Shown here: positions 13,661 through 39,927 of the stretch, in pieces
Numbering within the stretch: position 1 is the stretch's first letter
How the letters are laid out: each line of letters opens with the position of its first letter
From: Flavihumibacter petaseus NBRC 106054
Lineage (GTDB): Bacteria; Bacteroidota; Bacteroidia; Chitinophagales; Chitinophagaceae
NCBI RefSeq assembly: GCF_000974785.1
Contig: NZ_BBWV01000001.1
Location: 372,001-436,000, forward strand
DNA length: 64,000 nt
Direction: 5' to 3'
Program-made: the position numbers and the translations under genes
The notes under the pieces: generated by a model
What the model was told of the DNA's origin: nothing
What the model saw: the letters and a program-made list of their open reading frames with translations, nothing else
The model's database searches: none

Positions 13661-14698
13661 ATGAAAACCAGATTTTCCCATATCACTTTCCTGATGTTGA
13701 TGGTAACGCTGCTGACCACGGGGAAGCTGCGTGCACAGGACATTCACTTTTCCCAGTTCTACGAAGCACCGCTATTGCGGAACCCTTCACTTGCCGGGAT
13801 CTTTACCGGAGACATAAGGGCACAGATCGTCTACCGGGATCAGTGGAACAGTTTTACAAACGCCTATCGCAGTGGTTCGCTGAATTTTGAATACAAGTTA
13901 CCGGTTGGAGGAACCGAGGATTTCATAACTGCTGGCCTGCAGATGCTGTATGATCGTGCCGGAACTGTATCCCTCACCTCTACCCATTTGTTGCCTGCCA
14001 TCAACTATCATAAATCCCTCAGCAGCGAACGAAACATGTTCCTTTCCGTTGGTTTTATGGGCGGGATGGTACGCAGAAGCATTGACCAGTCAAAAATCAC
14101 AACCGACAACCAATTCACCGGCGGCGCCTTCAATCCTGCCGTAGCCAGTGGAGAAACCTTTGCAAATGCAAATTACTGGTACCCGGATGCCAGCGTTGGG
14201 ACTGCATTCAACATGAGTTTCGGTAAGGAAGAAGACAACAACCTGTTCTTTGGTGTAGCCTACCACCACGTCAACCGTCCCTCCAACTCATTTTACAGAA
14301 ATGCCAATGAAGCGCTTCATCCCAAATGGGTTGTTTCCGGTGGTGTAAAATTTGATCTGAATGACGAAAGTTTTTTCAACCTCCAGGCAGACTATTCCAA
14401 ACAGGGAAGCGCGTCAGAGGTCATTGGAGGTGCCATGTATGGCTATAAGTTCGGCGATCCGGAGACGCCTGATTATGTCTTGCAGCTGGGTGCTTTTATT
14501 CGTGCCAAAGATGCCCTGATCCCCGCACTCAAGATAGATTACAATCCTTTTTCACTGGGATTCAGTTATGATGTGAACGTTTCGCAGCTCAAGACAGCCA
14601 GCCAGGGCCGCGGCGGTTTTGAATTATCGGTCACCTATATTGGTTTCCTGGATCGTGAAAGTTCTTCGAAATTCAAGATCCACTGTCCCCGTTTTTAA
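13661..14698 (+). CDS. PorP/SprF family type IX secretion-associated outer membrane protein
   Basis: 345 residues. A signal peptide ends near LRAQ, directly followed by the family's typical start DIHFSQFYEAPLLRNPSLAG. The rest is a predicted 14-stranded-type beta barrel, and the protein ends in HCPRF, matching the CPRF end of the second family member at 38878. PorP/SprF proteins sit in the outer membrane and are needed for export or anchoring of type-B cargo encoded next to them. The 4-base gap to the upstream PKD protein makes that protein the likely client. Assignment is to the family, not to PorP or SprF proper. Confidence 0.92.
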   Translation: MKTRFSHITFLMLMVTLLTTGKLRAQDIHFSQFYEAPLLRNPSLAGIFTGDIRAQIVYRDQWNSFTNAYRSGSLNFEYKLPVGGTEDFITAGLQMLYDRAGTVSLTSTHLLPAINYHKSLSSERNMFLSVGFMGGMVRRSIDQSKITTDNQFTGGAFNPAVASGETFANANYWYPDASVGTAFNMSFGKEEDNNLFFGVAYHHVNRPSNSFYRNANEALHPKWVVSGGVKFDLNDESFFNLQADYSKQGSASEVIGGAMYGYKFGDPETPDYVLQLGAFIRAKDALIPALKIDYNPFSLGFSYDVNVSQLKTASQGRGGFELSVTYIGFLDRESSSKFKIHCPRF

Positions 14699-19375: not shown

Positions 19376-22135
19376 ATGAGACCCAACCATCGCTGGTTGA
19401 AATTGCTCAATGTACATGATAATGAGTGGCTGACCGTGAAGAAGCTGTTTTGGCTGCAGTTCTTTCAGGGAGCAGGTATTTCATTCTTTTTTACCGCCGA
19501 ATTTGCGCGGTTCCTGGAACGGTTTCCAATCTCCCGGTTGCCCTGGGTAATGATCCTTTCTGCTTTTCTCCTTTGGCTCTCCGGCCTCGTCTATACAGTT
19601 CTTGAACCACTGATCTCCTTTAAAAAATTCAATACGGCGCTTATCCTGTTCATGGCGGGTAGTATGTTGATGGTCCGGCTGGGAAGCATCGTTTTTCCTC
19701 AGGATTGGTTTTACTATTTCAGCCTTGCCTGGTTTTATGTACTGTACCTTTTAAATAATCTTGAATTCTGGGGGATAGCGGCACAGCTGTTTGACATCCG
19801 GCAAAGCAAGCGGCTTTTTGGCGTCATCAGCGCCGGTGACATACCCGCCAAATTTGTCGGTTATACGCTCGCGCTGGTGTTTGTCAGTTTTACCGGAACC
19901 CTGAACCTGTTGCTGGTCGGTTTCCTGTGCATGCTCGCCTCACTTCCCTTTTTTACCAGGCTTGCAGACGATGAAGCGGCAGCTTTCGGACATGGCCATC
20001 AGCATGGCGGCCATTCTTCCGCACACCCCTGGCAATCCGTTTCAAACCTGATCGAGGATTTCAAACACAGCAAGATCATCCAGCGGATCGCCTGGATTTC
20101 CCTGACTACCGGCGCCTGTATGATCATCGTTAATTATGGCTTTTACGCCAAGGTCAAGGAGAACAATCACACAGACATTGAACTGGCCCGTTTTATCGCC
20201 GTATTTATGATCACCCTGCGCGTTGCGGCTATGGTTACCAAAACAATCTTTACCGGCAGGCTGACCATGCATCTCGGGGTGAGGCAAAGCCTGTTTATTA
20301 CGCCGGTAGCCATGGTATTGCTGGTAGGGTTCATCCTGGTGTTCAGCCACGGTAACAATAACCCAAAACTCATATTGTACCTTTTCGGAGCAACCAGTAT
20401 CGGCGTAGATGTATTGCGAACAGCGATCAATGCACCGGTGATCCTGACCGTTATGCAGCCGTTACCCCTACACGAAAGATTGCGGGCACACAATATTGTG
20501 AAAGGCATTATGGATCCATTTGCCACGCTATTCTGTGGCATATTATTGCTGGTATTGTTCCATTACCAGCAATCGATCAACCTGGTGACGCTCTGTTATG
20601 TGCTGCTGATCATTGCAGCGGCCTGGATCATAGGCATCGTACTGGTGAACGCCGAATACCTGAACATGCTGATCAAGACCATCAGCAGTCGCTTCTTCAG
20701 CCAGGAGGAGTTTAACCTGAATGACGCTGAGACGCTGACCAAAATCCAGGAAAAGATAAAATCGGGCTCAGAATCGGAAGTGATGAGTGTGTTGCTGATG
20801 GTGGCAACCAAACAAAATCCACTTTCCACCGACCTGCTGGAGCGGTTTCTGGAGCATCCGGCACGTGACATCCGGCTCGAAACGATCCGCATTATCGGTT
20901 CCAAAAAAATCACCTCACTGAAAGAGCGCCTCATCCCCTTTGTATTTCGAGAGGAAGAACAACTTTTACAGCTGGAGGCTGTGAAAACCATTTGCCAGCT
21001 TGCCGACAACGCGATGGAACTCGATGCCTACCTCAATCACCCCAGTGCGATCATCCGTCAAACAGCAATGATCGGGTTGATGAATAACACCCAGGGCATA
21101 CCCGCCGGACAGGCTGGATCGATCATCGGAACGATGATCGACAATGGCGACAAAGCCGAAAAGCTCAGGGCGCTCGACATGCTCGAAGCTGCCAACGAAG
21201 TTTTCGGCCTGGATGCCCATGCGGGTTTGCTGAGTGATACCGACCACCAGGTACGTACACGCGCCATCAATGCACTGGGAAAAGCGGCAACCCCCAATAC
21301 TATTAAAGCGTTGGCTGCCATTGCCCCTAAAGAAGAGAAACTGGCTGTGAAAGCTTTCCAGCGTATTGGCCCTGCTGCCCTGCCCCACCTTCGCCAATTG
21401 CTGCTTAAACTGCATGCCGGTCAGAATATCCGGAAACAGCTGTTACTGGTCACCGGCAGGATCGGCGGCGAAGCGGCCCAGAAGATCCTTTTGGAACAAC
21501 TGACAGCAAAACCCGCAGACGCGGCAGATATCGTGAAGGCTCTCTACCGGTCTAAATATATAGTAACTGCTGAAAGCCGGGGAATGCTGGAGGAATATTG
21601 CCGCCACTATATCAAGAATGCTGTCGAACTGCTGCACATGCAGAAAGCTTTACCGGAAAAGCAGGACCCCGACCCTTTATTGTTCAGTGCTGTACAGATC
21701 GAATTGCAGGAAATCAGGGAGGTCCTCTTATGCCTGTTTGCCTGCCTCTATGACCGTAAACAGATCAAAAAGGTACGTAACGGCCTTCTGGCGAACCGCA
21801 AGGACAATATTGCCAATGCCCTGGAGATCATCGAACTGACGGTAAAGAAGGACCTGGGTAAATATTTCAATATCTTATACGAGAGTGTGCCAATTGAACG
21901 GAAATGCGACCTGCTGAAAATGCTGAATGGCGGTTTCCGCTATGACCAGGCGGGATCGGTTCTTGGCCGTATTCTTTCTGAACAGCCAATCCGGTACCTT
22001 GACTGGACAAAAGCCTGTTCATTGTATATTACAAGAAAGTATACCATCCCGGTAGAAGAACAATTATTACTTAAATTCCTGGAAGCTGAAAGCCTCCTTT
22101 TACAGGAAACAGCCCGATACGCTTATGCAAACTGA
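19376..22135 (+). CDS. ATP/ADP-carrier-like (MFS-fold) membrane protein with HEAT repeats
   Basis: 919 residues. The N-terminal half (about 25-430) has some 11-12 hydrophobic helices resembling the NTT ATP/ADP carrier branch of the MFS fold. A histidine-rich cytoplasmic loop starts at residue 205 (GHGHQHGGHSSAH) between helices. The C-terminal half (about 455-900) is soluble and built from HEAT-like helical repeats (for example HPARDIRLETIRIIGSKK, DTDHQVRTRAINALGKAA). In related Bacteroidota proteins the HEAT part is often followed by a cyclic-nucleotide-binding domain; here that domain is a separate gene overlapping the end by 11 bases. Transport activity is unproven and the protein could be a regulated scaffold. 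Confidence 0.8.
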   Translation: MRPNHRWLKLLNVHDNEWLTVKKLFWLQFFQGAGISFFFTAEFARFLERFPISRLPWVMILSAFLLWLSGLVYTVLEPLISFKKFNTALILFMAGSMLMVRLGSIVFPQDWFYYFSLAWFYVLYLLNNLEFWGIAAQLFDIRQSKRLFGVISAGDIPAKFVGYTLALVFVSFTGTLNLLLVGFLCMLASLPFFTRLADDEAAAFGHGHQHGGHSSAHPWQSVSNLIEDFKHSKIIQRIAWISLTTGACMIIVNYGFYAKVKENNHTDIELARFIAVFMITLRVAAMVTKTIFTGRLTMHLGVRQSLFITPVAMVLLVGFILVFSHGNNNPKLILYLFGATSIGVDVLRTAINAPVILTVMQPLPLHERLRAHNIVKGIMDPFATLFCGILLLVLFHYQQSINLVTLCYVLLIIAAAWIIGIVLVNAEYLNMLIKTISSRFFSQEEFNLNDAETLTKIQEKIKSGSESEVMSVLLMVATKQNPLSTDLLERFLEHPARDIRLETIRIIGSKKITSLKERLIPFVFREEEQLLQLEAVKTICQLADNAMELDAYLNHPSAIIRQTAMIGLMNNTQGIPAGQAGSIIGTMIDNGDKAEKLRALDMLEAANEVFGLDAHAGLLSDTDHQVRTRAINALGKAATPNTIKALAAIAPKEEKLAVKAFQRIGPAALPHLRQLLLKLHAGQNIRKQLLLVTGRIGGEAAQKILLEQLTAKPADAADIVKALYRSKYIVTAESRGMLEEYCRHYIKNAVELLHMQKALPEKQDPDPLLFSAVQIELQEIREVLLCLFACLYDRKQIKKVRNGLLANRKDNIANALEIIELTVKKDLGKYFNILYESVPIERKCDLLKMLNGGFRYDQAGSVLGRILSEQPIRYLDWTKACSLYITRKYTIPVEEQLLLKFLEAESLLLQETARYAYAN

Positions 22136-22565
22136 TAAATTACTGTTGGTAGAAAAAGTTCTGATCCTTAAGTCTTTGAGCATCTTCCGTGAAACACCCG
22201 AAAACATCCTGGCCGACCTGGCACCATTGATGGAAGAACTGGAATGCGAAAGGAACACACTGCTATTCCATGAGGGCGAAATAGGCGATTGCATGTATGT
22301 TATCCAGCAGGGCGAAGTAAGGATTCACAAAGGAGACATTACCCTTGCCGTTCTCAAAGACAGGGAAGTTTTCGGGGAATTATCCCTGTTAGATGCGGAA
22401 ACCCGTTCTGCATCAGCTACCTGCGCTTCGGATTGCAGCCTTTTCAGGATCGACCAGGAGCCCTTTTATGAACTTATAGATTCCCGCCCCGAAGTTGCCC
22501 GGGGCTTTATTAAAATCCTTTGCCAGCGGCTTCGGGCCCAAAATGAAAAATCGGTTAAGGGATAA
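22125..22565 (+). CDS. Cyclic nucleotide-binding domain protein
   Basis: 146 residues: one CRP/CAP-type cNMP-binding fold and no DNA-binding domain. The beta roll runs LFHEGEIGDCMYVIQQGEVRI, and the phosphate-binding cassette is FGELSLLDAETRSASATC at 83-100, with the ligand-binding Glu85 and Arg94 both present, so it should bind cAMP or cGMP. The start codon lies inside the HEAT-protein gene (overlap 11 bases), so the two are probably translated together and act as one complex. It ends 188 bases before the giant protease gene. Confidence 0.9.
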   Translation: MQTDKLLLVEKVLILKSLSIFRETPENILADLAPLMEELECERNTLLFHEGEIGDCMYVIQQGEVRIHKGDITLAVLKDREVFGELSLLDAETRSASATCASDCSLFRIDQEPFYELIDSRPEVARGFIKILCQRLRAQNEKSVKG

Positions 22566-22753: not shown

Positions 22754-25700
22754 ATGAAAAAGCTGAACAGGAAGAACGTCTTCCTTACCTTTCTGCCACT
22801 GCTGACGGCATTATTGACTGCACTTCCGGCTACTGCACAACAACTAAAAATCCAGGACTTTGTCATGTATGGCAAAGGCACTGTTGAAATCGGAGGTTCA
22901 AATACCTTCACCGGCAAGGGTGCAATTGCAAGTTCTACCTACATTAAATCTTCCAGCACTTCCCTTATAGCAGGCGATTTTCATACTTCCGGAAAGATCG
23001 AGTATCAGAATAACAATTCTATTGAAGGCAATATCAACGCTATTTCCACTATAACAGCGGGAAATGGCTTTAACCTGAAAGGCAATATCAAAGCAGGTGG
23101 AAAGGTAACCATATCAGGAGGAAAAATCACTGGAACCGTTACCACGGGCACTTCCTATTCAGGTCCAACACCAGGTGGCGGACCGGCTATCATTGCCCAA
23201 CCAGTGCTGCCCGCACTTCCCGCCTTTCCTGCTGGTATTAATTTTACCGCAGGCACAACCGACATCACCGGTAACGCGTCCCTGACACCGGTAAATGATA
23301 CCGCGCGCGTACGCAAAGTCAGTTTCAGCGGTAGTAAAACGCTTACATTCAACGGCCCCGGTGTATATATATTTGACGACATCAACTTAACGGGATCTAC
23401 CAGTATTGTCTTTGACCTGAAAGGCAAATCCGGAAAGATTTATATCCTGGTAAAAGGTAACATGTTGCTGGGAAATGCAACAGCATCCTATAAAAATGCA
23501 CCGGCTAATGACAGCGAGATTTCGATAGCTTCCAGAATTCTGACAATCGTCAATGGGTCCGGGGGATCGGACAAAATCGCATTCCGGCTGAATAACGGAA
23601 CCGGTAGCTATGTCTCCAAGTGGCTGGGCACTATCTGGACATCTGCCGGCGGTGTGGAACTGGGTAAAAATTCAGGAAAATCATTTTTCACCGGTGCAGT
23701 AATATCTGCCGGAGACATCAAACTGAATACTGGCGTTTCAATTGTGTTCAGTCCCTATGGAGACTGCCTGACGAAACCCAACGCCAACGCGGGTAGTGAT
23801 AAGCAACTTACAAGTGATATTACAAGTGTCACACTAAACGGAAGTTCAACCACTGCTAATGCCCAGTTTGCATGGACAGCCTTAGCTGGCGGCGCCATCC
23901 AGAGTGGCGCCAATACTGCATCGCCTGTAATTGCACAGGAAGGTACATACGTTCTTACAGTGACGGACCCTGCTTCAGGCTGCACGCAAACGGACACTGC
24001 CATTGTCACCCGCAAATCCGGCATTGATCCTGGTTATGAAAGCGATAATTTCAAAGTCAATGATATTATCGGACCAGAACTCACTGCCCTTGCCGGCAAC
24101 AAGGAAATCAATGCCGGCCAGAACCTGTTTATCATTGATGGCAACAGGGTTTACATCGAAGTAGTTACTGTGGCTACCAAATACAACGATGTATTATCGC
24201 TGATTCAGACGTCACCTTATGGCATGGACAATATCATTCCCAATCCCAGTGGTTCACTGACAATTACGGGAAGATATCCTATCGCAAATCTCACCAAGCT
24301 TAACCTCCTGCCGGATCTGATCCGGTATGTAAAGCCACTGATCCCACCCATCATGGAAAACGGGATTGCGAATACGCAGGGTGATATTGCCCAGAAAACC
24401 GACTATATCCGGAACGCTTATAACCTTGATGGTTCTGGTATTAAAATCGGCGTGCTGTCTGATAGTTATAGTACAATTCCCAATAAGGCTTTTCAGGACG
24501 TCCAGAACGGTGACCTTCCCGGCCCAGGTAACCCCAACGGCATCATCACTCCGGTAGATGTTTTGCTTGATTACACCTTCGGTCAGAAGCTGGATGAAGG
24601 AAGGGCCATGTTGCAGATTATTCATGATATCGCTCCAAAAGCCACACTGGCATTCCGGACCGGGTTTCTGAGTGCCGGCGATTTTGCCAATGGCATCCGG
24701 TCACTCAAAACTGCGGGTTGCCAGATCATTGTTGACGATATTACCTACTACACAGAGCCTTTCTTTGCAAAGGGGCAGGTTGCGAAGGCTGTAGAAGAGG
24801 TCAGCAGCCAGGGTGTTGCCTATTTTACTTCTGCGGGTAATTTCGGAAGTAAATCCTACCAGGCCCAATTCTCACCAGGCACACTCCCCGCTGCATCCGG
24901 ATTAACTGGTACAGCGCATAATTTCGGCGGAACGGTATTGCAGAAACTCAACCTGAAAACAGCAGGCGTATTCACCATAGTGCTGCAATGGCAGGATGAT
25001 GTCTATTCCCTTGGCCAGTCAACCACCGGCACACAGAATGATATTGATATCTACCTCACGGACAATAACGGAAAGATCATTTATGGTTTTAACCGTAACA
25101 ATATAGGAGGTGATCCTTATGAAATCCTTCCCTTCCAGATTGATGAGCCTACACAGGCAAATATTATGATCGTCAGGGCACAGGGCACTGGAAACCCCAA
25201 TCTCAAATACATCGTACTCCGCGGTGACGCTGAAATTGTGAACTACAGCGGCAGCAGCACGATTTTCGGACATGCCAACAGTCCGGCTGCAATGACGGTT
25301 GGTGCTGTTCTGTATTCCAACACACCTGCTTATGGCGTTAATACACCAACAATTGCCTCCTTCTCCTCAGTCGGTGGCGGAGTATTTGAAACTGCCATTC
25401 CCAATAAACCTGATTTCACCGCGCCCAACGGCGTCAGCACTACCGTGGTATTCCCGAATGCACCGGACCCTGACGGTGATGGCTTCACCAATTTTTACGG
25501 CACATCAGCTGCCGCCCCGCATGCGGCTGCAATGGGAGTATTGATTGCGCAGGCAAGAAAAAAATACTTCAATCTGGACGCAGATGGTGCATATATCCGC
25601 AACCTGTTGAAGAATACCGCCATAGATATGAATGCCGGAGGCTTTGATTTCATTTCAGGTTCCGGGCTTATACAAGGCGACGCTGCACTGGCCAGCATGC

Positions 25701-28700
25701 CTTCCGCCCCTACACCCAAGCTGATTACAATTGACCTGCCACCCAATACCAATATTACCAATGGCTCGACTGCGCCGCTCCCCATAACCATCAACGGCGA
25801 CTACTTCAACGAAAACTCAGTAGTGTATGTTCGGAATACGCCGTACACACCAACTTCTATTACTGACGAGCAGATCAAAATAACATTGCCTCCTTTCACA
25901 GGAAACCCGGCAATAAGGGTCTATACTCCTTCGGAAACTCCCAGCGAACTTGATGGCGGTTTTTCCAATTCTGTCAATATTGCCGACATTCCCAAGAAAA
26001 ATGTGGTAGTCACGGTCCAGAATGCTACAAAAAAATTCGCAGAAGCCTTACCTGATTTCGCCATCACGGTGACTGTAAACGGCGCCTCACTTCCCAGTGG
26101 CACTACATTGACGAGTCTGGGCCTCGACCAGGTTCAATATGCAACTACCGCAAATAGCCAAAGTCCCGTAGGCAGCTACCTCGTCAGGGCAACGCGGACA
26201 TTCGATCCGGCTAATGACGCTGACGCAGGCCTGCTGGAATTGTACAATTATTCTTTCGTGGGTGGTGTATTGACTGTGGCGCCACTTCATGTTACTATAA
26301 AACCGGAAGACAAAACTGCTGTTTACGGCGAATCACTGAAAAACATTTCATTCAGGTATATCTACGATGATTCAAAAATACCAATTGGCGAGCGTGCAGC
26401 ATTCCTCTCCAAACTCCAGACGCAACACCAGGCCAATTTCATGAGAAACACGACTGTGTTGCTGTCCGCCAGGTATTCGAATATTACACCCTTAACAGCC
26501 TCCGATCTCACCAACCTCGCCGTTCTTGTCAGCCGTACAGCAACTTCAAAGGGTGTCCCCTTTGTAAATGGCATTCCTTTCGGAGAAGGTGGAACCGGAA
26601 CAAATGATACCACTATTCTGGTAAGCGTGAATCCACAGGGCATCTATGACCTTAACAACCAGGTGACCAATGCACTCACCAGAAAAGGAGTACCGCTGAT
26701 CAATGGTAATCCTATCTATAACGGTGTGCCTTATGTCAATACCACTGCGGTACTGAATACTGTCACCCTGCTTGAAAATGAAGCTGTGGTAAATGGCGTG
26801 CCGTTTGTGAACGGTGTACCATTCGTTAACGGTGTGCCGTACATCAATGGTGTGCCGTATATCAACAGGAAATCATATGAATCAATCAACGGTGTTCCCT
26901 ATATCAATGGAGTACCGTATATCAACAGCGGATTTGAACTTATTAACGGAGTTCCCTACATTAACGGCGTGCCGTTCGTAAACAGCGGATTCGAAATGGT
27001 TAACGGTGTGCCGTTTGTAAATGGTGTTCCACTGATTAACAGTGGGGAAATGTACCTGATCAATGGTGTTCCATTTGTCAACAATGGCGGCCTCTACCTG
27101 ATCAACGGAGTACCTTATATCAACAGCGGATTCAATATTCAGAATGGCGTTCCTTTTGTCAATGGAGTGCCGTATATCAACTCTGCATTTACCCTTGTAA
27201 ATGGTGTTCCGTTTGTTAATGGCGTACCGTTCGTTAATGCATCCGTCTCTTTGCAGAACGGAGTGCCTTATATTAATGGTGTTCCCTTTGTTAATAACCT
27301 CAGCGGTTTCGAGTTGATTAACGGTGTGCCGTATATCAATGGCGTTCCTTTTGTAAACAGCAATATCGTGGTACAGAATGGTGTTCCATATATTAATGGT
27401 GTTCCATTCGTAAATACTGCCATAACCCTGCAAGCTGGCGTACCGTATATCAACGGCGTGCCGTTCGTTAACAGCGGTAGCAACTATATAGTCAACGGCG
27501 TCCCCTTTGTAAATAGTGGCGGCTCACTGGCCAGCGTTATAGACGAGGAAGATCTGGCTCTTGGAGATAAGAGTCTTGTCCTCCAATCTGCCAATGCCAT
27601 TACAGGGTATACAGTCGGACAACAATATATTGTGCCCGGCGCCTTCATGCCCGGCTCTGTTCTGGGCAATAACCTTGACATCAATTACGAATCCGGCTTA
27701 TTGAACATTACGCCGGCGACACTGACCATCAAGGCTGATGATGTAACAGTAGCGTTTGGTGCGACAATTCCGGCTTACACTGCACAAACTACCGGCCTGC
27801 TGCTCGGAGATCTTGCAACGTCAGTGCTGGATGGTCCGATCACGTTCACCACCACCAATGCGACCAACCAGATTGTGACGCCGTACAAACCCGGTCTGTA
27901 TAACATCAATCCGCAGGCAACCACACAAACTTCTGCCAACTATGTACTTGACCTTAAGAAGGGGCAACTTACTATTGGTAAAGCGCCATTGACAATAACG
28001 GCTGAAAATAAATCAAGGGCTTACGGCGATGCCAATCCTGCATTCACCTTTGTATACTCCGGATTTATCGGCACAGACAATGCAGATATCCTTCAGACAA
28101 AGCCAACGGGAACTACTATTGCAACAGCAACTTCTAACGTTGGCCCGTATGATATCACTGCGGCGGGAGCGGTTTCAGATATCTATTCATTTACGTATGT
28201 GAAAGGAACACTAACCGTTACGCAGGCAGCGCTGACGGTTAAAGCGGATGATAACTATATGTACCAGGGTGATGCTTTCCCATCATTCACAGCCACCTAT
28301 ACCGGTCTCAAAAATAGTGACCGGACCCTGATCGGATCGAACAGTCTTACTTTTACCGTTAACAATTACACTGGTCAGGCCGGCACCTATCCAATCGTAC
28401 CTTCTGCGCTTAACTTCAGCAAAGTTGGAAACTACAGCATTACCTATCAGAATGGCTTGCTGTATGTTAATCCGAAAGGCAATGGTGCCAAAAAGATCAG
28501 GGCCTACCTGGATTGCATCAGGGATCTCGGTGCCGGAACAACACCGTATCGTTACGTGGCAAGATTCTTCTACGTAAATGATAATAGCACGGCGATTCTT
28601 ATTCCCAATACCAGCAATGACAATAAGCTGTCATCGTCCGGCAGATTTGATGGCTCAGCGCAACCATCCGTATTCCTTCCAGGCACAGCATCATTTGATG

Positions 28701-29110
28701 TACCATTTGACGGCACCAAACTGACCTGGACGGTTACCAGTTATGAGTCTGCGAAGAAATCCGCAATCGCTGCAACCGGAAGTTCTACTTCCGGCAGGTG
28801 CAACAACAGCCGTGGCTCCGGAAATACTGCTAAGGAAACAGCGGTGGTAACTGAAACTATAGACGCCAGCTGGAAATTCTACCCCAACCCCGTGATCAGC
28901 CGGTTGATGATCAATAGCGGTAAAGAATCAATTGATCCGAAATCTGTTTCCCTGTTTGACGCTTCCGGCAGAAGGTTGTTGCTGCCAGAAACCAGGCAGG
29001 TAACCAGCCGACTGGTGGAACTGAATCTTTCCGGATTACCGGCAGGTATTTATATTGTGAAGGTGGAAACCACAAACGGACAAAAACTGATGCGTATAGT
29101 GAAGCAATAG
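22754..29110 (+). CDS. Giant secreted S53/S8-like protease with IPT/TIG-like and MBG domains, GVP(Y/F)(I/V)N repeat and T9SS type-A tag
   Basis: 2118 residues. Signal peptide 1-29; beta-helix-like region about 35-340; PKD-like segment about 345-420. A subtilase/sedolisin-like domain spans about 545-960: D570 in GVLSDSY, a DEGRAMLQIIHD helix from D614, D661-D662 before ITYY at the oxyanion position, and catalytic S918 in GTSAAAPH. The HGT histidine motif of classical subtilisins is absent and the Asp-rich oxyanion segment is sedolisin-like. An IPT/TIG-like domain follows (about 985-1075), then MBG-type domains from about 1085 to 1900. One MBG unit holds a 280-residue insert of GVP(Y/F)(I/V)N repeats. 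The type-A sorting domain starts at WKFYPNP (about 2039). Presumably a surface or secreted protease; substrate unknown. Confidence 0.88.
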   Translation: MKKLNRKNVFLTFLPLLTALLTALPATAQQLKIQDFVMYGKGTVEIGGSNTFTGKGAIASSTYIKSSSTSLIAGDFHTSGKIEYQNNNSIEGNINAISTITAGNGFNLKGNIKAGGKVTISGGKITGTVTTGTSYSGPTPGGGPAIIAQPVLPALPAFPAGINFTAGTTDITGNASLTPVNDTARVRKVSFSGSKTLTFNGPGVYIFDDINLTGSTSIVFDLKGKSGKIYILVKGNMLLGNATASYKNAPANDSEISIASRILTIVNGSGGSDKIAFRLNNGTGSYVSKWLGTIWTSAGGVELGKNSGKSFFTGAVISAGDIKLNTGVSIVFSPYGDCLTKPNANAGSDKQLTSDITSVTLNGSSTTANAQFAWTALAGGAIQSGANTASPVIAQEGTYVLTVTDPASGCTQTDTAIVTRKSGIDPGYESDNFKVNDIIGPELTALAGNKEINAGQNLFIIDGNRVYIEVVTVATKYNDVLSLIQTSPYGMDNIIPNPSGSLTITGRYPIANLTKLNLLPDLIRYVKPLIPPIMENGIANTQGDIAQKTDYIRNAYNLDGSGIKIGVLSDSYSTIPNKAFQDVQNGDLPGPGNPNGIITPVDVLLDYTFGQKLDEGRAMLQIIHDIAPKATLAFRTGFLSAGDFANGIRSLKTAGCQIIVDDITYYTEPFFAKGQVAKAVEEVSSQGVAYFTSAGNFGSKSYQAQFSPGTLPAASGLTGTAHNFGGTVLQKLNLKTAGVFTIVLQWQDDVYSLGQSTTGTQNDIDIYLTDNNGKIIYGFNRNNIGGDPYEILPFQIDEPTQANIMIVRAQGTGNPNLKYIVLRGDAEIVNYSGSSTIFGHANSPAAMTVGAVLYSNTPAYGVNTPTIASFSSVGGGVFETAIPNKPDFTAPNGVSTTVVFPNAPDPDGDGFTNFYGTSAAAPHAAAMGVLIAQARKKYFNLDADGAYIRNLLKNTAIDMNAGGFDFISGSGLIQGDAALASMPSAPTPKLITIDLPPNTNITNGSTAPLPITINGDYFNENSVVYVRNTPYTPTSITDEQIKITLPPFTGNPAIRVYTPSETPSELDGGFSNSVNIADIPKKNVVVTVQNATKKFAEALPDFAITVTVNGASLPSGTTLTSLGLDQVQYATTANSQSPVGSYLVRATRTFDPANDADAGLLELYNYSFVGGVLTVAPLHVTIKPEDKTAVYGESLKNISFRYIYDDSKIPIGERAAFLSKLQTQHQANFMRNTTVLLSARYSNITPLTASDLTNLAVLVSRTATSKGVPFVNGIPFGEGGTGTNDTTILVSVNPQGIYDLNNQVTNALTRKGVPLINGNPIYNGVPYVNTTAVLNTVTLLENEAVVNGVPFVNGVPFVNGVPYINGVPYINRKSYESINGVPYINGVPYINSGFELINGVPYINGVPFVNSGFEMVNGVPFVNGVPLINSGEMYLINGVPFVNNGGLYLINGVPYINSGFNIQNGVPFVNGVPYINSAFTLVNGVPFVNGVPFVNASVSLQNGVPYINGVPFVNNLSGFELINGVPYINGVPFVNSNIVVQNGVPYINGVPFVNTAITLQAGVPYINGVPFVNSGSNYIVNGVPFVNSGGSLASVIDEEDLALGDKSLVLQSANAITGYTVGQQYIVPGAFMPGSVLGNNLDINYESGLLNITPATLTIKADDVTVAFGATIPAYTAQTTGLLLGDLATSVLDGPITFTTTNATNQIVTPYKPGLYNINPQATTQTSANYVLDLKKGQLTIGKAPLTITAENKSRAYGDANPAFTFVYSGFIGTDNADILQTKPTGTTIATATSNVGPYDITAAGAVSDIYSFTYVKGTLTVTQAALTVKADDNYMYQGDAFPSFTATYTGLKNSDRTLIGSNSLTFTVNNYTGQAGTYPIVPSALNFSKVGNYSITYQNGLLYVNPKGNGAKKIRAYLDCIRDLGAGTTPYRYVARFFYVNDNSTAILIPNTSNDNKLSSSGRFDGSAQPSVFLPGTASFDVPFDGTKLTWTVTSYESAKKSAIAATGSSTSGRCNNSRGSGNTAKETAVVTETIDASWKFYPNPVISRLMINSGKESIDPKSVSLFDASGRRLLLPETRQVTSRLVELNLSGLPAGIYIVKVETTNGQKLMRIVKQ
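26686..27520 (+). repeat. In-gene repeat array encoding GVP(Y/F)(I/V)N units
   Basis: About 27 copies of a six-residue unit, NGVPYI or NGVPFV, mostly in pairs (NGVPYINGVPFV) and separated by 4-8 residue spacers such as SGFELI, SNIVVQ, SAFTLV. An outlying copy (KGVPFVNGIPF) lies near 26550. The basic DNA period is 18 bases, but codons vary freely between copies (ggt/ggc/gga, gtg/gtt/gta), so the amino-acid pattern has been kept while the DNA diverged. The array covers residues about 1311-1589 of the giant protease. Confidence 0.95.
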
Positions 29111-29126
29111 ATTAATAAATGATTAG

Positions 29127-31097
29127 ATGAGTAAATTCCTATGTAGTTGTTGGGCATTGCTGATGGCACTGATATCCTTCGCGCAAAACCAAACAGCCGA
29201 CAGCCTTTTGAAAGCCATACAGGGTATGCAGGAGGATTCCCTGAAGGTCGACGCCCTGATCCAGCTCAGCAGGAATTATTACAATGATTCCTGGGACAAT
29301 GCCATCCGTTACGCGAACGAGGCAAAGGACCTGGCTGCAAGGATCGGGTATAAGAAAGGGGAGGCCCTTGCTTTCAAAGGCATTGGTATCGCCTATTATG
29401 TAATGGGCCAGCCGGTTAGTGCCATCGGTGCCTGGGAGGAATCTCTAAAAGCCTTCCGGTCACTTAATGACAAAAGCGGTATTGCCAACATTCTGGGTAA
29501 CCTGGGAGGCGTGTATGAAAGAAGCGACGAAGCTAAAGCGATGGAATACTACCTTCAGTCGCTGAGCGTGGCTGAGGAGATCGGTGACAATTATCGTATC
29601 GCCACCATGATGCTCAATCTTGGCGCACTTTACGATAAAAAAAGTGCTACTGCTGCGAAGGCCATGGATGCCTACCGCAATGCGATTGCTATAGCCACGG
29701 CTCATAACTACCCCGATGCCCTCGGAATGGCTACCGGAAATATCGGTGACCTGTTCCTGAAAAAAGGAGAAATCGATTCAGCCCTTCATTATTTCAAACT
29801 GGCAGAACTCAATCTTCAGGGAAATGGCAACCTGCCTCTTGCACTGAATAATATCGGCAGGGCATATCTCCAGGCAAAAAATATCCCGGAAGCCACTACC
29901 TATCATCAGCGCGCTTACCAGGAAGCAAGCAGGTCCAACAACAAGCTTTACATGACGCAGGCCCTGCTGGGGCTCGCAGATATTGAAGTACAAAAGGGCG
30001 AAAACGGGCTCGCCCTGAAAACCTACCTGGAAGCGGAACAACTCGCCACCGAGCTGAAAGCCAACGACGAACTCAACAAATCGTATGAGGGACTATCGGC
30101 TACTTATTCCCGCCTTCGTGATTACAGTCATGCCTACCAGTATCAGGTCAAACTGACAGACCTCAAACAAAAGATTTACAATAAAGAAGCAGACGACAAA
30201 ATCAAAGACCTGCAATTCGAATTTGATCTTCAGAAAAAAGAAACAGAGATCAACCTGCTATCGCGGGACAAAGCCCTGCAGGATGTGGAGATCCGGCGCC
30301 AGCGTTTTGCCAAGAATGCCCTTACCGCAGGACTTATAGGCATCATTGCCATCGTCTTCATTCTCTACAGGGGATACCGCAATAAAGTGCGCACCAACCA
30401 GTTACTGGACAAACAGAAAATAGAGATTGAACACCTGTTGCTCAACATTCTTCCGGAAGAAGTTGCCCATGAACTGCAGACTGAAGGAAGTGCAACGCCG
30501 AAAAACTTTGAACAGGTTTCAGTTCTGTTCACAGACTTCAAAGGATTCACCAAAATGGCTGATGTGCTGTCGCCGCAGGAACTGGTCGCCGAACTGAATG
30601 AATGTTTTATGGCATTCGATGAAATCATTGAAAAACACCACCTTGAAAAAATAAAAACCATTGGTGATTCTTACATGTGTGCCGGCGGAATTCCTGTACC
30701 TGACAGTAACCATGCCACTCATATTATAGAAGCAAGTTTTGACATCATAAGGTATCTCGAACAATGGAACAGCCGCCGTATTGAAAAGGGCCTGCAACCC
30801 TGGGAATTGCGTATAGGCATCCACGTAGGCCCGGTAGTGGCGGGTGTGGTAGGTAAGAAGAAATACGCCTATGATATCTGGGGTAGTACAGTGAATATTG
30901 CCAGCCGGATGGAAAGCGCCGGTGAACCAGGCAAGGTCAATATCTCTTCCAGCATGTTCGAACTGGTACGCGATCAGTATGAATGCCGGTATCGTGGAAA
31001 AATCTACGCCAAGAATATCGGTGAGATCGATATGTACTTTGTGGATGGGGTCAAAGCGCAGACAGGTGAAATCCCGTTAGCGATGACCGCCTCTTGA
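29127..31097 (+). CDS. Adenylate cyclase, class III, with TPR sensor region
   Basis: 656 residues. A signal-like N-terminus ends FAQ near 20. TPR repeats at about 30-370 are probably periplasmic; a coiled segment and one membrane helix (about 396-416) follow. The cytoplasmic class III cyclase domain spans about 460-640. Metal-binding aspartates are in FTDFKGF and in GDSY (GDS at 513-515). The substrate-selecting pair is Lys in KTIGDSY and Asp in YDIWGS, the adenylate-type combination. The transition-state residues are Asn and Arg in VNIASRMES. All catalytic residues are present, so it should make cAMP. It follows the giant protease by 16 bases and overlaps the end of the convergent VWA gene by 21 bases. 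Confidence 0.93.
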   Translation: MSKFLCSCWALLMALISFAQNQTADSLLKAIQGMQEDSLKVDALIQLSRNYYNDSWDNAIRYANEAKDLAARIGYKKGEALAFKGIGIAYYVMGQPVSAIGAWEESLKAFRSLNDKSGIANILGNLGGVYERSDEAKAMEYYLQSLSVAEEIGDNYRIATMMLNLGALYDKKSATAAKAMDAYRNAIAIATAHNYPDALGMATGNIGDLFLKKGEIDSALHYFKLAELNLQGNGNLPLALNNIGRAYLQAKNIPEATTYHQRAYQEASRSNNKLYMTQALLGLADIEVQKGENGLALKTYLEAEQLATELKANDELNKSYEGLSATYSRLRDYSHAYQYQVKLTDLKQKIYNKEADDKIKDLQFEFDLQKKETEINLLSRDKALQDVEIRRQRFAKNALTAGLIGIIAIVFILYRGYRNKVRTNQLLDKQKIEIEHLLLNILPEEVAHELQTEGSATPKNFEQVSVLFTDFKGFTKMADVLSPQELVAELNECFMAFDEIIEKHHLEKIKTIGDSYMCAGGIPVPDSNHATHIIEASFDIIRYLEQWNSRRIEKGLQPWELRIGIHVGPVVAGVVGKKKYAYDIWGSTVNIASRMESAGEPGKVNISSSMFELVRDQYECRYRGKIYAKNIGEIDMYFVDGVKAQTGEIPLAMTAS

Positions 31098-38877: not shown

Positions 38878-39927
38878 TCAGAAACGGGGACACAGAGATT
38901 GTCGCTGACTGCCGTTATAATCGCTGTAAAAGCCCTGTTTCAGGAGAGAAAACTCAATGGCCCCACGGGAATTGTTATAGGCTGCAAGCGAAGATGTGGT
39001 AACATCGTAGGTAAAACTCATCCGGAAATTCTTCCATTGAAAACCGATCAGCGGAATAATTGATTCTCCTGCCCTGTAAAAAGCCCCCCCGATAAGCTGA
39101 ACTTCACCATCGCCGCTGAGATTATAATTGGCACTTCCCCCCAATACCAATTCATTGGCCGTAGCCTGGCTGGTATAATATCCCATGGGGTTAAGTATAA
39201 CCTGGTCATTCAGTTTAATGCTGGCACTAAGAAATCCGATATACCGCATTGCCAGGCGATTGTCAAAACCACTCTCCGTAAAAAAACTTTCTTTCGGCCG
39301 GTTCAGGTGATGCACCGAAAAGCCACCATTAATGTACAGATTGTCCGTCGGGAAATAAGCATAGTTGAGCCCCGCCTGGATATCCATATAAGTAATGCTG
39401 GTATTGGTAAAAACCACATTGGTGGGTAACCCCGCATCGAAAAAACCGGTCGCCTGGTTGAACTGGTCAGGGAACTTCAGTTTGGTCGGGTCGATTCGCT
39501 TATTTGACATTCCCACATTAAATCCCGCCGTAAGCAAACTTGCATAGCCAAGCATCTGGTGGTATGCAATAGAACCGTACAATTTGGTCGAAGTAAGATT
39601 TCCGCTACCGGCCGCATCCCTTAATAACACGCCACCCAATCCTAGCCACCCGTTTTCAAAACGGTCACGGAAAACCTGGGCATCACCATAAATGCTGAAC
39701 GTCTTATAAGGCACCGACATCACATTCACCCACTGGTTACGGTAATTGGCGCCAATACGGTAGTCCGCATCGGGTATAAAACCGGTGTTCGCAGGATTTG
39801 TTGTCAGCGGTGAATTGAAAAATTGGGAAAAATGCAGATCCTGACCGATAGCCTGCCCTTGCGCCAATACGGCCAGAATAAACATCAGGGTCCAAACTTT
39901 ACCGGGTTTATATATTATGCAATCCAT
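38878..39927 (-). CDS. PorP/SprF family type IX secretion-associated outer membrane protein, second copy
   Basis: 349 residues. A signal-like helix (ending AIGQ) is followed by the family start DLHFSQFFNSPLTTNPANTG, then a beta barrel with recognisable blocks (YRNQWVNV, HHLNRPKESFF, FTYDV) and the same CPRF ending as the copy at 13661. It lies 17 bases downstream of the DUF7948/PKD cargo gene whose C-terminal domain is type B, the normal arrangement of a cargo and its dedicated outer-membrane partner. Confidence 0.92.
   Translation of the reverse strand: MDCIIYKPGKVWTLMFILAVLAQGQAIGQDLHFSQFFNSPLTTNPANTGFIPDADYRIGANYRNQWVNVMSVPYKTFSIYGDAQVFRDRFENGWLGLGGVLLRDAAGSGNLTSTKLYGSIAYHQMLGYASLLTAGFNVGMSNKRIDPTKLKFPDQFNQATGFFDAGLPTNVVFTNTSITYMDIQAGLNYAYFPTDNLYINGGFSVHHLNRPKESFFTESGFDNRLAMRYIGFLSASIKLNDQVILNPMGYYTSQATANELVLGGSANYNLSGDGEVQLIGGAFYRAGESIIPLIGFQWKNFRMSFTYDVTTSSLAAYNNSRGAIEFSLLKQGFYSDYNGSQRQSLCPRF

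Follow-up and report, generated by a model that had tools for sequence, protein, structure and literature searches.

A hexapeptide array inside a secreted subtilase of Flavihumibacter petaseus as a candidate ligand of the TPR sensor encoded directly downstream

The window, by which we mean the whole stretch of 64,000 nucleotides of Flavihumibacter petaseus NBRC 106054 that was analysed, contains a gene for a giant protease in which one domain is interrupted by a long array of six-residue words. The locus raises the question of what such an array is for and of what keeps its copies alike. The features of the protease gene are the following.

22754..29110, + strand: array-bearing T9SS subtilase gene of 2118 aa, with a signal-like N-terminus (judged by eye), PF00082, four MBG_2 (PF18676) stretches found with Pfam and a Por_Secre_tail
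25118..25666, + strand: subtilase domain (Pfam stretch PF00082, residues 789-971)
26282..26548, + strand: N-terminal half of the MBG-like host domain, a conserved flank with pLDDT in blocks of 72-98
26549..26683, + strand: GVPFVN, the first unit, followed by the conserved bridge segment (TTILVSVNPQGIYD in the window)
26684..27514, + strand: main hexapeptide array, 27 GVP units
27536..27718, + strand: C-terminal half of the MBG-like host domain, a conserved flank
28880..29107, + strand: T9SS type A sorting domain (residues 2043-2118; TIGR04183, 46.2 bits, cut-off 23)

The PF00082 (Peptidase S8) match of this protein scored 52.9 against a gathering cut-off of 21.8, and its C-terminal PF18962 match scored 43.7 bits against a cut-off of 27, which identify it as a subtilase and as type A cargo of the T9SS. 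The array comprises 28 GVP motifs at residues 1266-1587, one at 26549 and 27 from 26684 to 27514, and thus begins ahead of the start (26686) given in an earlier note, which had rightly recognized a real hexapeptide array. The spacing is mostly 6 and 13 residues, giving a super-unit of 19 residues made of two hexads and a spacer. Two main words, GVPFVN and GVPYIN, make up most of the array: the variable positions of the GVPxxN units read FV in 14, YI in 11, LI in 2 and YV in 1. All 24 NGVP[YF][VI] copies were spelled with different DNA, and comparison of the array (residues 1347-1587) with that of a same-genus relative gave 77% amino acid identity, a pN/pS of 0.18 and a pS of 0.81, both of which bear out the earlier claim that the unit is kept as protein while its codons differ. 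The whole protease showed 57% identity and a pN/pS of 0.38 with the same relative, and the array was the best conserved among the four protease parts compared. In the same-genus species L002, the array spacing was preserved almost unit for unit. An ORF of 183 aa on the minus strand (26882-27433) crosses the array and looks like a by-product of the repeated codons.

Before the array stands an MBG-like N part (TIKPEDKTAVYG, at residue 1181), and after it the matching C part (NNLDINYESG, at residue 1639). Across the loci compared, the usual frame is an MBG-like N part, a first block, a bridge, a second block and a C part, with the bridge often reading DTTxxVDLxxxSIFNY. The likeness to MBG_2 (PF18676) modules is that the array lies inside an MBG-like domain beside MBG_2 repeats, whereas the host domain differs from those modules by a helix (residues 131-147 of the window segment) and by the array insertion itself. 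The array-bearing part falls outside the profile: the 575-aa window segment matched MBG_2 at residues 5-94 only, with 24.1 against 25, and in the three array-bearing segments scanned the Pfam match was the preceding module only.

AF2 models, built with alignments made from the window and the named loci, gave high confidence for the flanks and a pLDDT mostly below 50 for the window array, with blocks up to 67; the array of 22 NGYALV copies at locus L104 had a pLDDT of 24-47. The low-confidence window model shows hairpin-like strands in the array. A regular solenoid was unsupported by these two models, in both of which the array had low confidence, a low pLDDT not being proof of disorder. The scan against Pfam gave no bacterial hexapeptide profile at E <= 1, and with the array modelled at low confidence a hexapeptide left-handed beta-helix was not indicated. 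A Foldseek search of the PDB with the L104 model returned nothing at E <= 0.001, the weak matches being largely Ig-like or S-layer domains, and a PDB sequence search with a 484-aa segment gave two hits, both with an E of 1.1. LED_rpt (PF20854) reached 16.0 and 23.7 bits against a cut-off of 59; no named repeat family matched the window array above cut-off, and Pam3_gp18 passed its cut-off on the low-complexity NGYALV array of L104 only. The earlier interpretation therefore stands for a protein-level array that interrupts an MBG-like domain and belongs to no named repeat family matched here, and is not supported for the solenoid.

Related subtilases carry an array in the same MBG-like slot with lineage-specific words (ARALVN, GKAAVN, GYALVN, LRGIVS and others), which goes beyond the earlier note, as does the pairing with a TPR sensor gene described below. 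A search of 59 genomes, the window genome among them, recovered same-slot arrays spelling NGVVRA, SLRGIV, NGYALV, NARPLV and NGKAAV; named genomes, when scanned, yielded 49 loci, both flanks of the array domain being present in 47, and 114 array-domain loci were left once duplicates had been removed. The 70 six-mer loci hold 48 distinct six-mers, and units of other lengths (7, 8 and about 20) were found too. Array-carrying genomes include Daejeonella oryzae, Ginsengibacter hankyongi, Ilyomonas limi and Flavisolibacter ginsengisoli. In a profile search, the array domain was present in 12 of 15 genomes of the genus and in 47 of 394 genomes of the family at E <= 1e-15, a cut-off chosen after seeing the search result; at E <= 0.001 the latter count was 70 of 394, the weak matches covering a stretch that suggests ordinary MBG ends. 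At E <= 1e-15 it was also found in 30 of 396 genomes of the order and 19 of 395 of the class, samples that overlap. By these sequence searches the array family is widespread in Bacteroidota, and the open-access literature searched held no apparent description of it or of its signalling. The window's 19-residue layout recurs with NG[TV]P[YF][VIL] words at L190, in a genome from a different family within the order. At L008, a small protein of G031 with an IGYGAS/IGGRAS hexad array was matched and is probably unrelated.

The codon usage of the copies was compared across 78 arrays. Within arrays, 713 exact copies had 668 distinct DNA spellings, where random codons predict 703, and exact copies differed at 3.82 of every 18 bases instead of the 4.44 that random codons would give. 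Codon scrambling, that is, selection for DNA dissimilarity, was not found overall, the copies being slightly more alike than random codons would make them. At 70 loci, exact copies accounted for a median of 0.78 of the hexamers with at most two differences from the top word; arrays were fully uniform at 20 of these loci, and exact copies made up less than one half of the near-match hexamers at 17. One word thus dominates in most arrays while codons are nearly randomised, a combination that argues for selection on the protein word and that is not easily produced by slippage or by recent gene conversion. The arrays of L109, L111 and L112 keep similar DNA between copies and look recently duplicated, and arrays probably start through tandem duplication of this kind.

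The catalytic motifs were scanned in the 105 array proteases that have more than 700 aa before the MBG part. An EGxA[ML] acidic motif, which we take to replace the usual His, was present in all 105, and the GTSxAxP serine motif was kept in 104; the D and N motifs, the former as written for the scan, were found in 68 and 62, respectively. At residues 853-912 of P0001, subtilase columns that covary with the array unit form a cluster, for which substrate specificity or phylogeny are possible reasons.

The genes next to the protease gene include the following features.

22125..22565, + strand: cNMP-binding protein upstream of the protease gene
29127..31097, + strand: partner gene of 656 aa, with a signal-like N-terminus, TPR sensor, TM helix and class III cyclase
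29187..30326, + strand: TPR sensor region (residues 21-400), proposed from covariation as the receptor of the array unit
29397..29399, + strand: Tyr91, groove position 12 of TPR2, which covaries with unit position 5 (p 2.1e-6)
29487..29489, + strand: Asn121, groove position 2 of TPR3, which covaries with Asn at unit position 6
30501..31046, + strand: Guanylate_cyc catalytic domain (residues 459-640)

In P0003, the sensor encoded in the window, hydrophobic windows begin at residue 1 and at residues 393-399; the TPRs (TPR_12, four stretches) lie between them and the class III cyclase comes after. Judging from these hydrophobic windows, the TPR part should be periplasmic. Among the 105 loci with at least 900 bp downstream of the array gene, the gene immediately downstream, on the same strand, encoded a TPR sensor in 87 and the one after it did so in 4 more (91/105), with a median gap of 72 bp between the array and sensor genes. 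For the other genes of the loci, taken as a control, a sensor was next in 4 of 363 cases and within two genes in 36 of 363, the latter figure including genes just upstream of the array gene. The loci hold 93 sensors, 91 of which were assigned to an array gene; the output domain of these 91 was a cyclase in 76 and a histidine kinase in 9, and 6 were cut by contig or locus ends. Fourteen of the 105 loci had no sensor among the next two genes. Five of these (L161, L172, L176, L178 and L147) are second copies, and the other copy in the same genome does have a sensor; L092 has its sensor one gene further downstream, and the other eight are L093, L104, L110, L167, L170, L173, L184 and L194, the sequence stretch of L104 ending inside the next gene. 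At L206 (6093-14319; G029), a gene of 2742 aa lies between the array and sensor genes, in what is apparently a three-gene operon.

The pairing was also seen at the level of genomes: within the genus, the 12 genomes (of 15) that have the array domain are also the ones that have the sensor. In the 394 genomes of the family, 46 held both, 1 the array only, 5 the sensor only and 342 neither, at cut-offs of E <= 1e-15 for the array and E <= 1e-30 for the sensor. The array-only genome (G157) has its array on a contig of 4.5 kb, and the five sensor-only genomes comprise three cases next to a contig end and two with distant TPR proteins. At the looser array cut-off of E <= 0.001 (70 genomes), 48 genomes held both, 22 an array hit only and 3 the sensor only. 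Searched with P0003, the window genome gave a single full-length match plus one further TPR match. The cNMP-binding protein encoded upstream (22125..22565) is a possible cAMP effector, and genes of its cluster lie near some other array loci. Further upstream, 19376-22135 encodes a membrane protein of 919 aa with HEAT repeats, relatives of which occur at 9 compared loci, the window included (cluster 3). Elsewhere in the window, 13661-14698 and 38878-39927 are two similar outer-membrane-like genes, presumably PorP/SprF-like, each adjoining a giant protein with a gliding-type C-terminus.

Covariation between the unit and the TPR domain was analysed in 70 of the 91 sensor-paired loci, or 48 after thinning to one row per unit clade. 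The loci left out were a hand-made list of 17, mostly with units not of period six or of odd register, together with receptors of 380 aa or less and S8 parts of 400 aa or less. Partial Mantel tests gave an r of 0.245 for the TPR part in 70 loci and, in 57 loci, an r of 0.305 for unit and TPR given S8 and MBG, against 0.16-0.17 for S8 and MBG given TPR. In the 48 thinned loci, the unit tracked the TPR part beyond S8 and MBG with an r of 0.182 (p 0.0075), the MBG flank added nothing (r -0.034) and S8 added a little (r 0.128, p 0.03), while the control, the cyclase domain from the sensor protein itself, gave an r of -0.109 in 39 loci (p 0.98), all these p-values being ones from which phylogeny is not fully removed. 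Columns 270-276 of the MBG control look like a copy of the unit, which makes this control conservative.

TPR positions 2, 5, 9, 12, 13, 33 and 34 are given as the concave face in the account of PMC1261162. The groove set used here consisted of positions 2, 5, 9, 12 and 13, positions 33 and 34 being omitted because their numbering is ambiguous in 40-residue repeats. For this set, which was picked after a per-site scan had hinted at it, the correlation with the unit beyond the remaining TPR, S8 and MBG was 0.333, 0.257 and 0.215 at three thinning levels. The groove register came first of 40 register shifts at all three levels, with TPR3 contributing most; in an earlier per-site version it came second of 40. 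When six random or neighbouring S8/MBG columns were put in place of the unit, no more than one draw in 300 reached the value in any of the 12 sets. A mutual-information scan with an effective n of 31 did not favour TPR columns, whose top 5% share was 0.027 against 0.061 for S8 and 0.074 for MBG, and comparison of groove with other TPR positions in that scan gave a p of 0.084. At p < 0.001, the groove was hardly richer in pairs than S8 (3.11 vs 2.68 per 1000), and it stood out only at p < 0.0001, with 1.17 per 1000 (3 of 2574 groove pairs) against 0.25 for S8. Charge complementarity between K/R units and an acidic groove was not found overall, the best columns (p 0.005) being at chance level for the 119 tested. 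Array pairs of the same genome at an MBG distance of 0.3-0.5 shared their word in 5 of 7 cases, one of which was counted after rotation by hand, as compared to 33 of 231 equally distant pairs from different genomes (p 0.0013); six more distant same-genome pairs (two in G917, two in G918, and one each in G502 and G079) all carry different words.

At the level of single residues, the 48258 unit-residue pairs tested were led by MBG columns resembling unit copies, followed by N6-N121 and then by V5-Y91. In the 70 six-mer loci, TPR residue 121 was Asn with all 61 Asn-ended words and with none of the 9 Ser- or Ala-ended words; in the thinned set the counts were 43/43 and 0/5 (p 5.8e-7, the pair having been found by scan, with a Bonferroni value of about 0.03 over 48258 pairs). 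On the S8 plus MBG tree, unit position 6 and residue 121 both change four times, with LRGIVS joined by Thr, GRVVTS by Ser, GKAIVA by Leu and GKAI[VF]S by Lys; the GKAIVA branch is weakly placed (0.213), and if it were joined to GKAI[VF]S the joint switches would be three. In a wider set of 92, to which the G029 sensor was added by hand, Asn occurred at both sites in 73 loci and at neither in 10, leaving 9 mismatches. The mismatches include L092 (GYALVN with Ser), L122 and L154 (20-residue units with Asp) and L119 (SGSLLKVV with Asn), whereas those of L120, L150, L155 and L180 are rotation labels of 7- and 8-mers containing Asn; L115 (a mixed NG/GG 8-mer with Asn) is a possible further break of the rule.

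The dominant words, their lineage specificity, the gene pairing, the swap of output domains and the groove covariation are together best fitted by a ligand-receptor account, in which the array is probably a multicopy peptide ligand for the TPR sensor of the next gene, either released or read intact. The subtilase would be exported by the type IX system, and the repeated word (GVPFVN/GVPYIN in the window) would bind the concave groove of a periplasmic TPR domain, whose sensor would then signal via its adenylate cyclase or, in some lineages, via a histidine kinase. Array copies would stay alike because all must fit one receptor, and words would differ between lineages because ligand and groove change together. 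The within-array pN/pS, with a median of 0.545 in 70 arrays, looks to fit this account less well than the exact-copy count; it took in non-unit hexads at array edges and was left unused. In the version that we tentatively prefer, the fused protease, or another one, frees short peptides that would return through the outer membrane, the whole protein being a multicopy pheromone precursor. Release of free peptides is plausible, given array words of 558-700 Da, the serine motif kept in 104 of 105 proteases, and the multicopy precursors of RRNPPA systems, some propeptides of which are described as containing the mature peptide as many as six times (PMC9765709).

A sensor that reads the intact array, binding it during its periplasmic crossing or at the surface, could do without any free peptide: a multivalent clamp would cluster cyclase or kinase subunits and report the export or surface state. 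Such a clamp would explain the many copies, the operon, the groove covariation and a low-confidence, possibly exposed array with no cleavage step. We nevertheless consider it somewhat unlikely, since L139, L140 and L135 hold only two to four exact copies of their top word, though with variants alongside, and the conservation of the serine motif is left unexplained. A structural or adhesive repeat, whose units would build a cell-surface sheet or solenoid and whose sensor gene would be linked for another reason, would suit the hydrophobic/Asn pattern and the hairpin-like strands of the window model; it is improbable, as the array pLDDT is mostly below 50 and neither the unit-groove covariation nor N6-N121 is predicted by it.

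Two further explanations bear on the evidence itself. Related loci may share unit and TPR residues through ancestry only, and the covariation would then be a phylogenetic echo. S8 and MBG distances also track the unit, S8 columns covary too, and the Mantel tests correct for trees incompletely, but the result in the thinned set, the S8, MBG and cyclase controls, the register shifts, the six-column controls and the four joint switches speak against this explanation and leave it with little probability. A linker repeat shaped by neutral slippage, which the earlier note had itself named as grounds for rejecting its interpretation, or by gene conversion would account for the similar DNA of the L109, L111 and L112 copies; it does not fit the unit-for-unit spacing kept in L002, the distinct DNA of 668 of 713 exact copies or an array better conserved between congeners than the other parts compared, and is extremely unlikely.

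The logic of the proposed ligand-receptor system is nearest to that of the RRNPPA systems of Firmicutes and phages (Rap/Phr, PlcR, NprR, AimR), with which it shares a short linear peptide, a TPR receptor and adjacent genes. Many RRNPPA subfamilies carry DNA-binding domains. P0003 has the TPR receptor in its four TPR_12 stretches, but its hydrophobic windows and Guanylate_cyc domain, with no HTH family at E <= 0.01, set it apart from a cytosolic or HTH receptor, and its neighbour is a protease of 2118 aa instead of a small propeptide gene. The RRNPPA receptor is described as cytosolic (PMC9765709), whereas the sensor here combines a signal-like N-terminus and a TM helix with a cyclase or kinase, and the words lie within a giant secreted Bacteroidota protease. 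Since location, precursor and output depart from the defining features of RRNPPA, the array-sensor system is not filed there. FimS, a TPR histidine kinase of Porphyromonas gingivalis, has a periplasmic TPR sensor domain of related sequence (NF053520, E 6.2e-26), but P0003 scored 90.8 against a cut-off of 600 for that family; the signal of FimS is reported as unknown in PMC11053733. Among solved chains, those of LGN (GPSM2) and Pins come closest to the TPR part by sequence. The TPR domains of these two proteins bind short peptides in their groove, and both are eukaryotic adaptors, not membrane sensors. As no family considered accepts it, the array-sensor system is regarded as a new kind, or as a variant if all peptide-TPR pairs count as one kind.

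The arrays show how a protein repeat can remain alike while its codons randomise, and the loci offer a large number of naturally occurring, presumed peptide-TPR pairs on which specificity can be studied. They may reveal peptide signalling in Bacteroidota, where the open-access search had found no apparent account of it. It is possible, though held with some doubt, that this amounts to a phylum-wide form of communication in which a protease is its own pheromone precursor and lineage-specific hexapeptides re-enter the periplasm, where they would be read by the paired TPR sensor with its interchangeable output, many pherotypes arising as word and groove change together. If the ligand-receptor account is true, the extracytoplasmic TPR sensors of Bacteroidota would gain a ligand that is readable and predictable from the genome.
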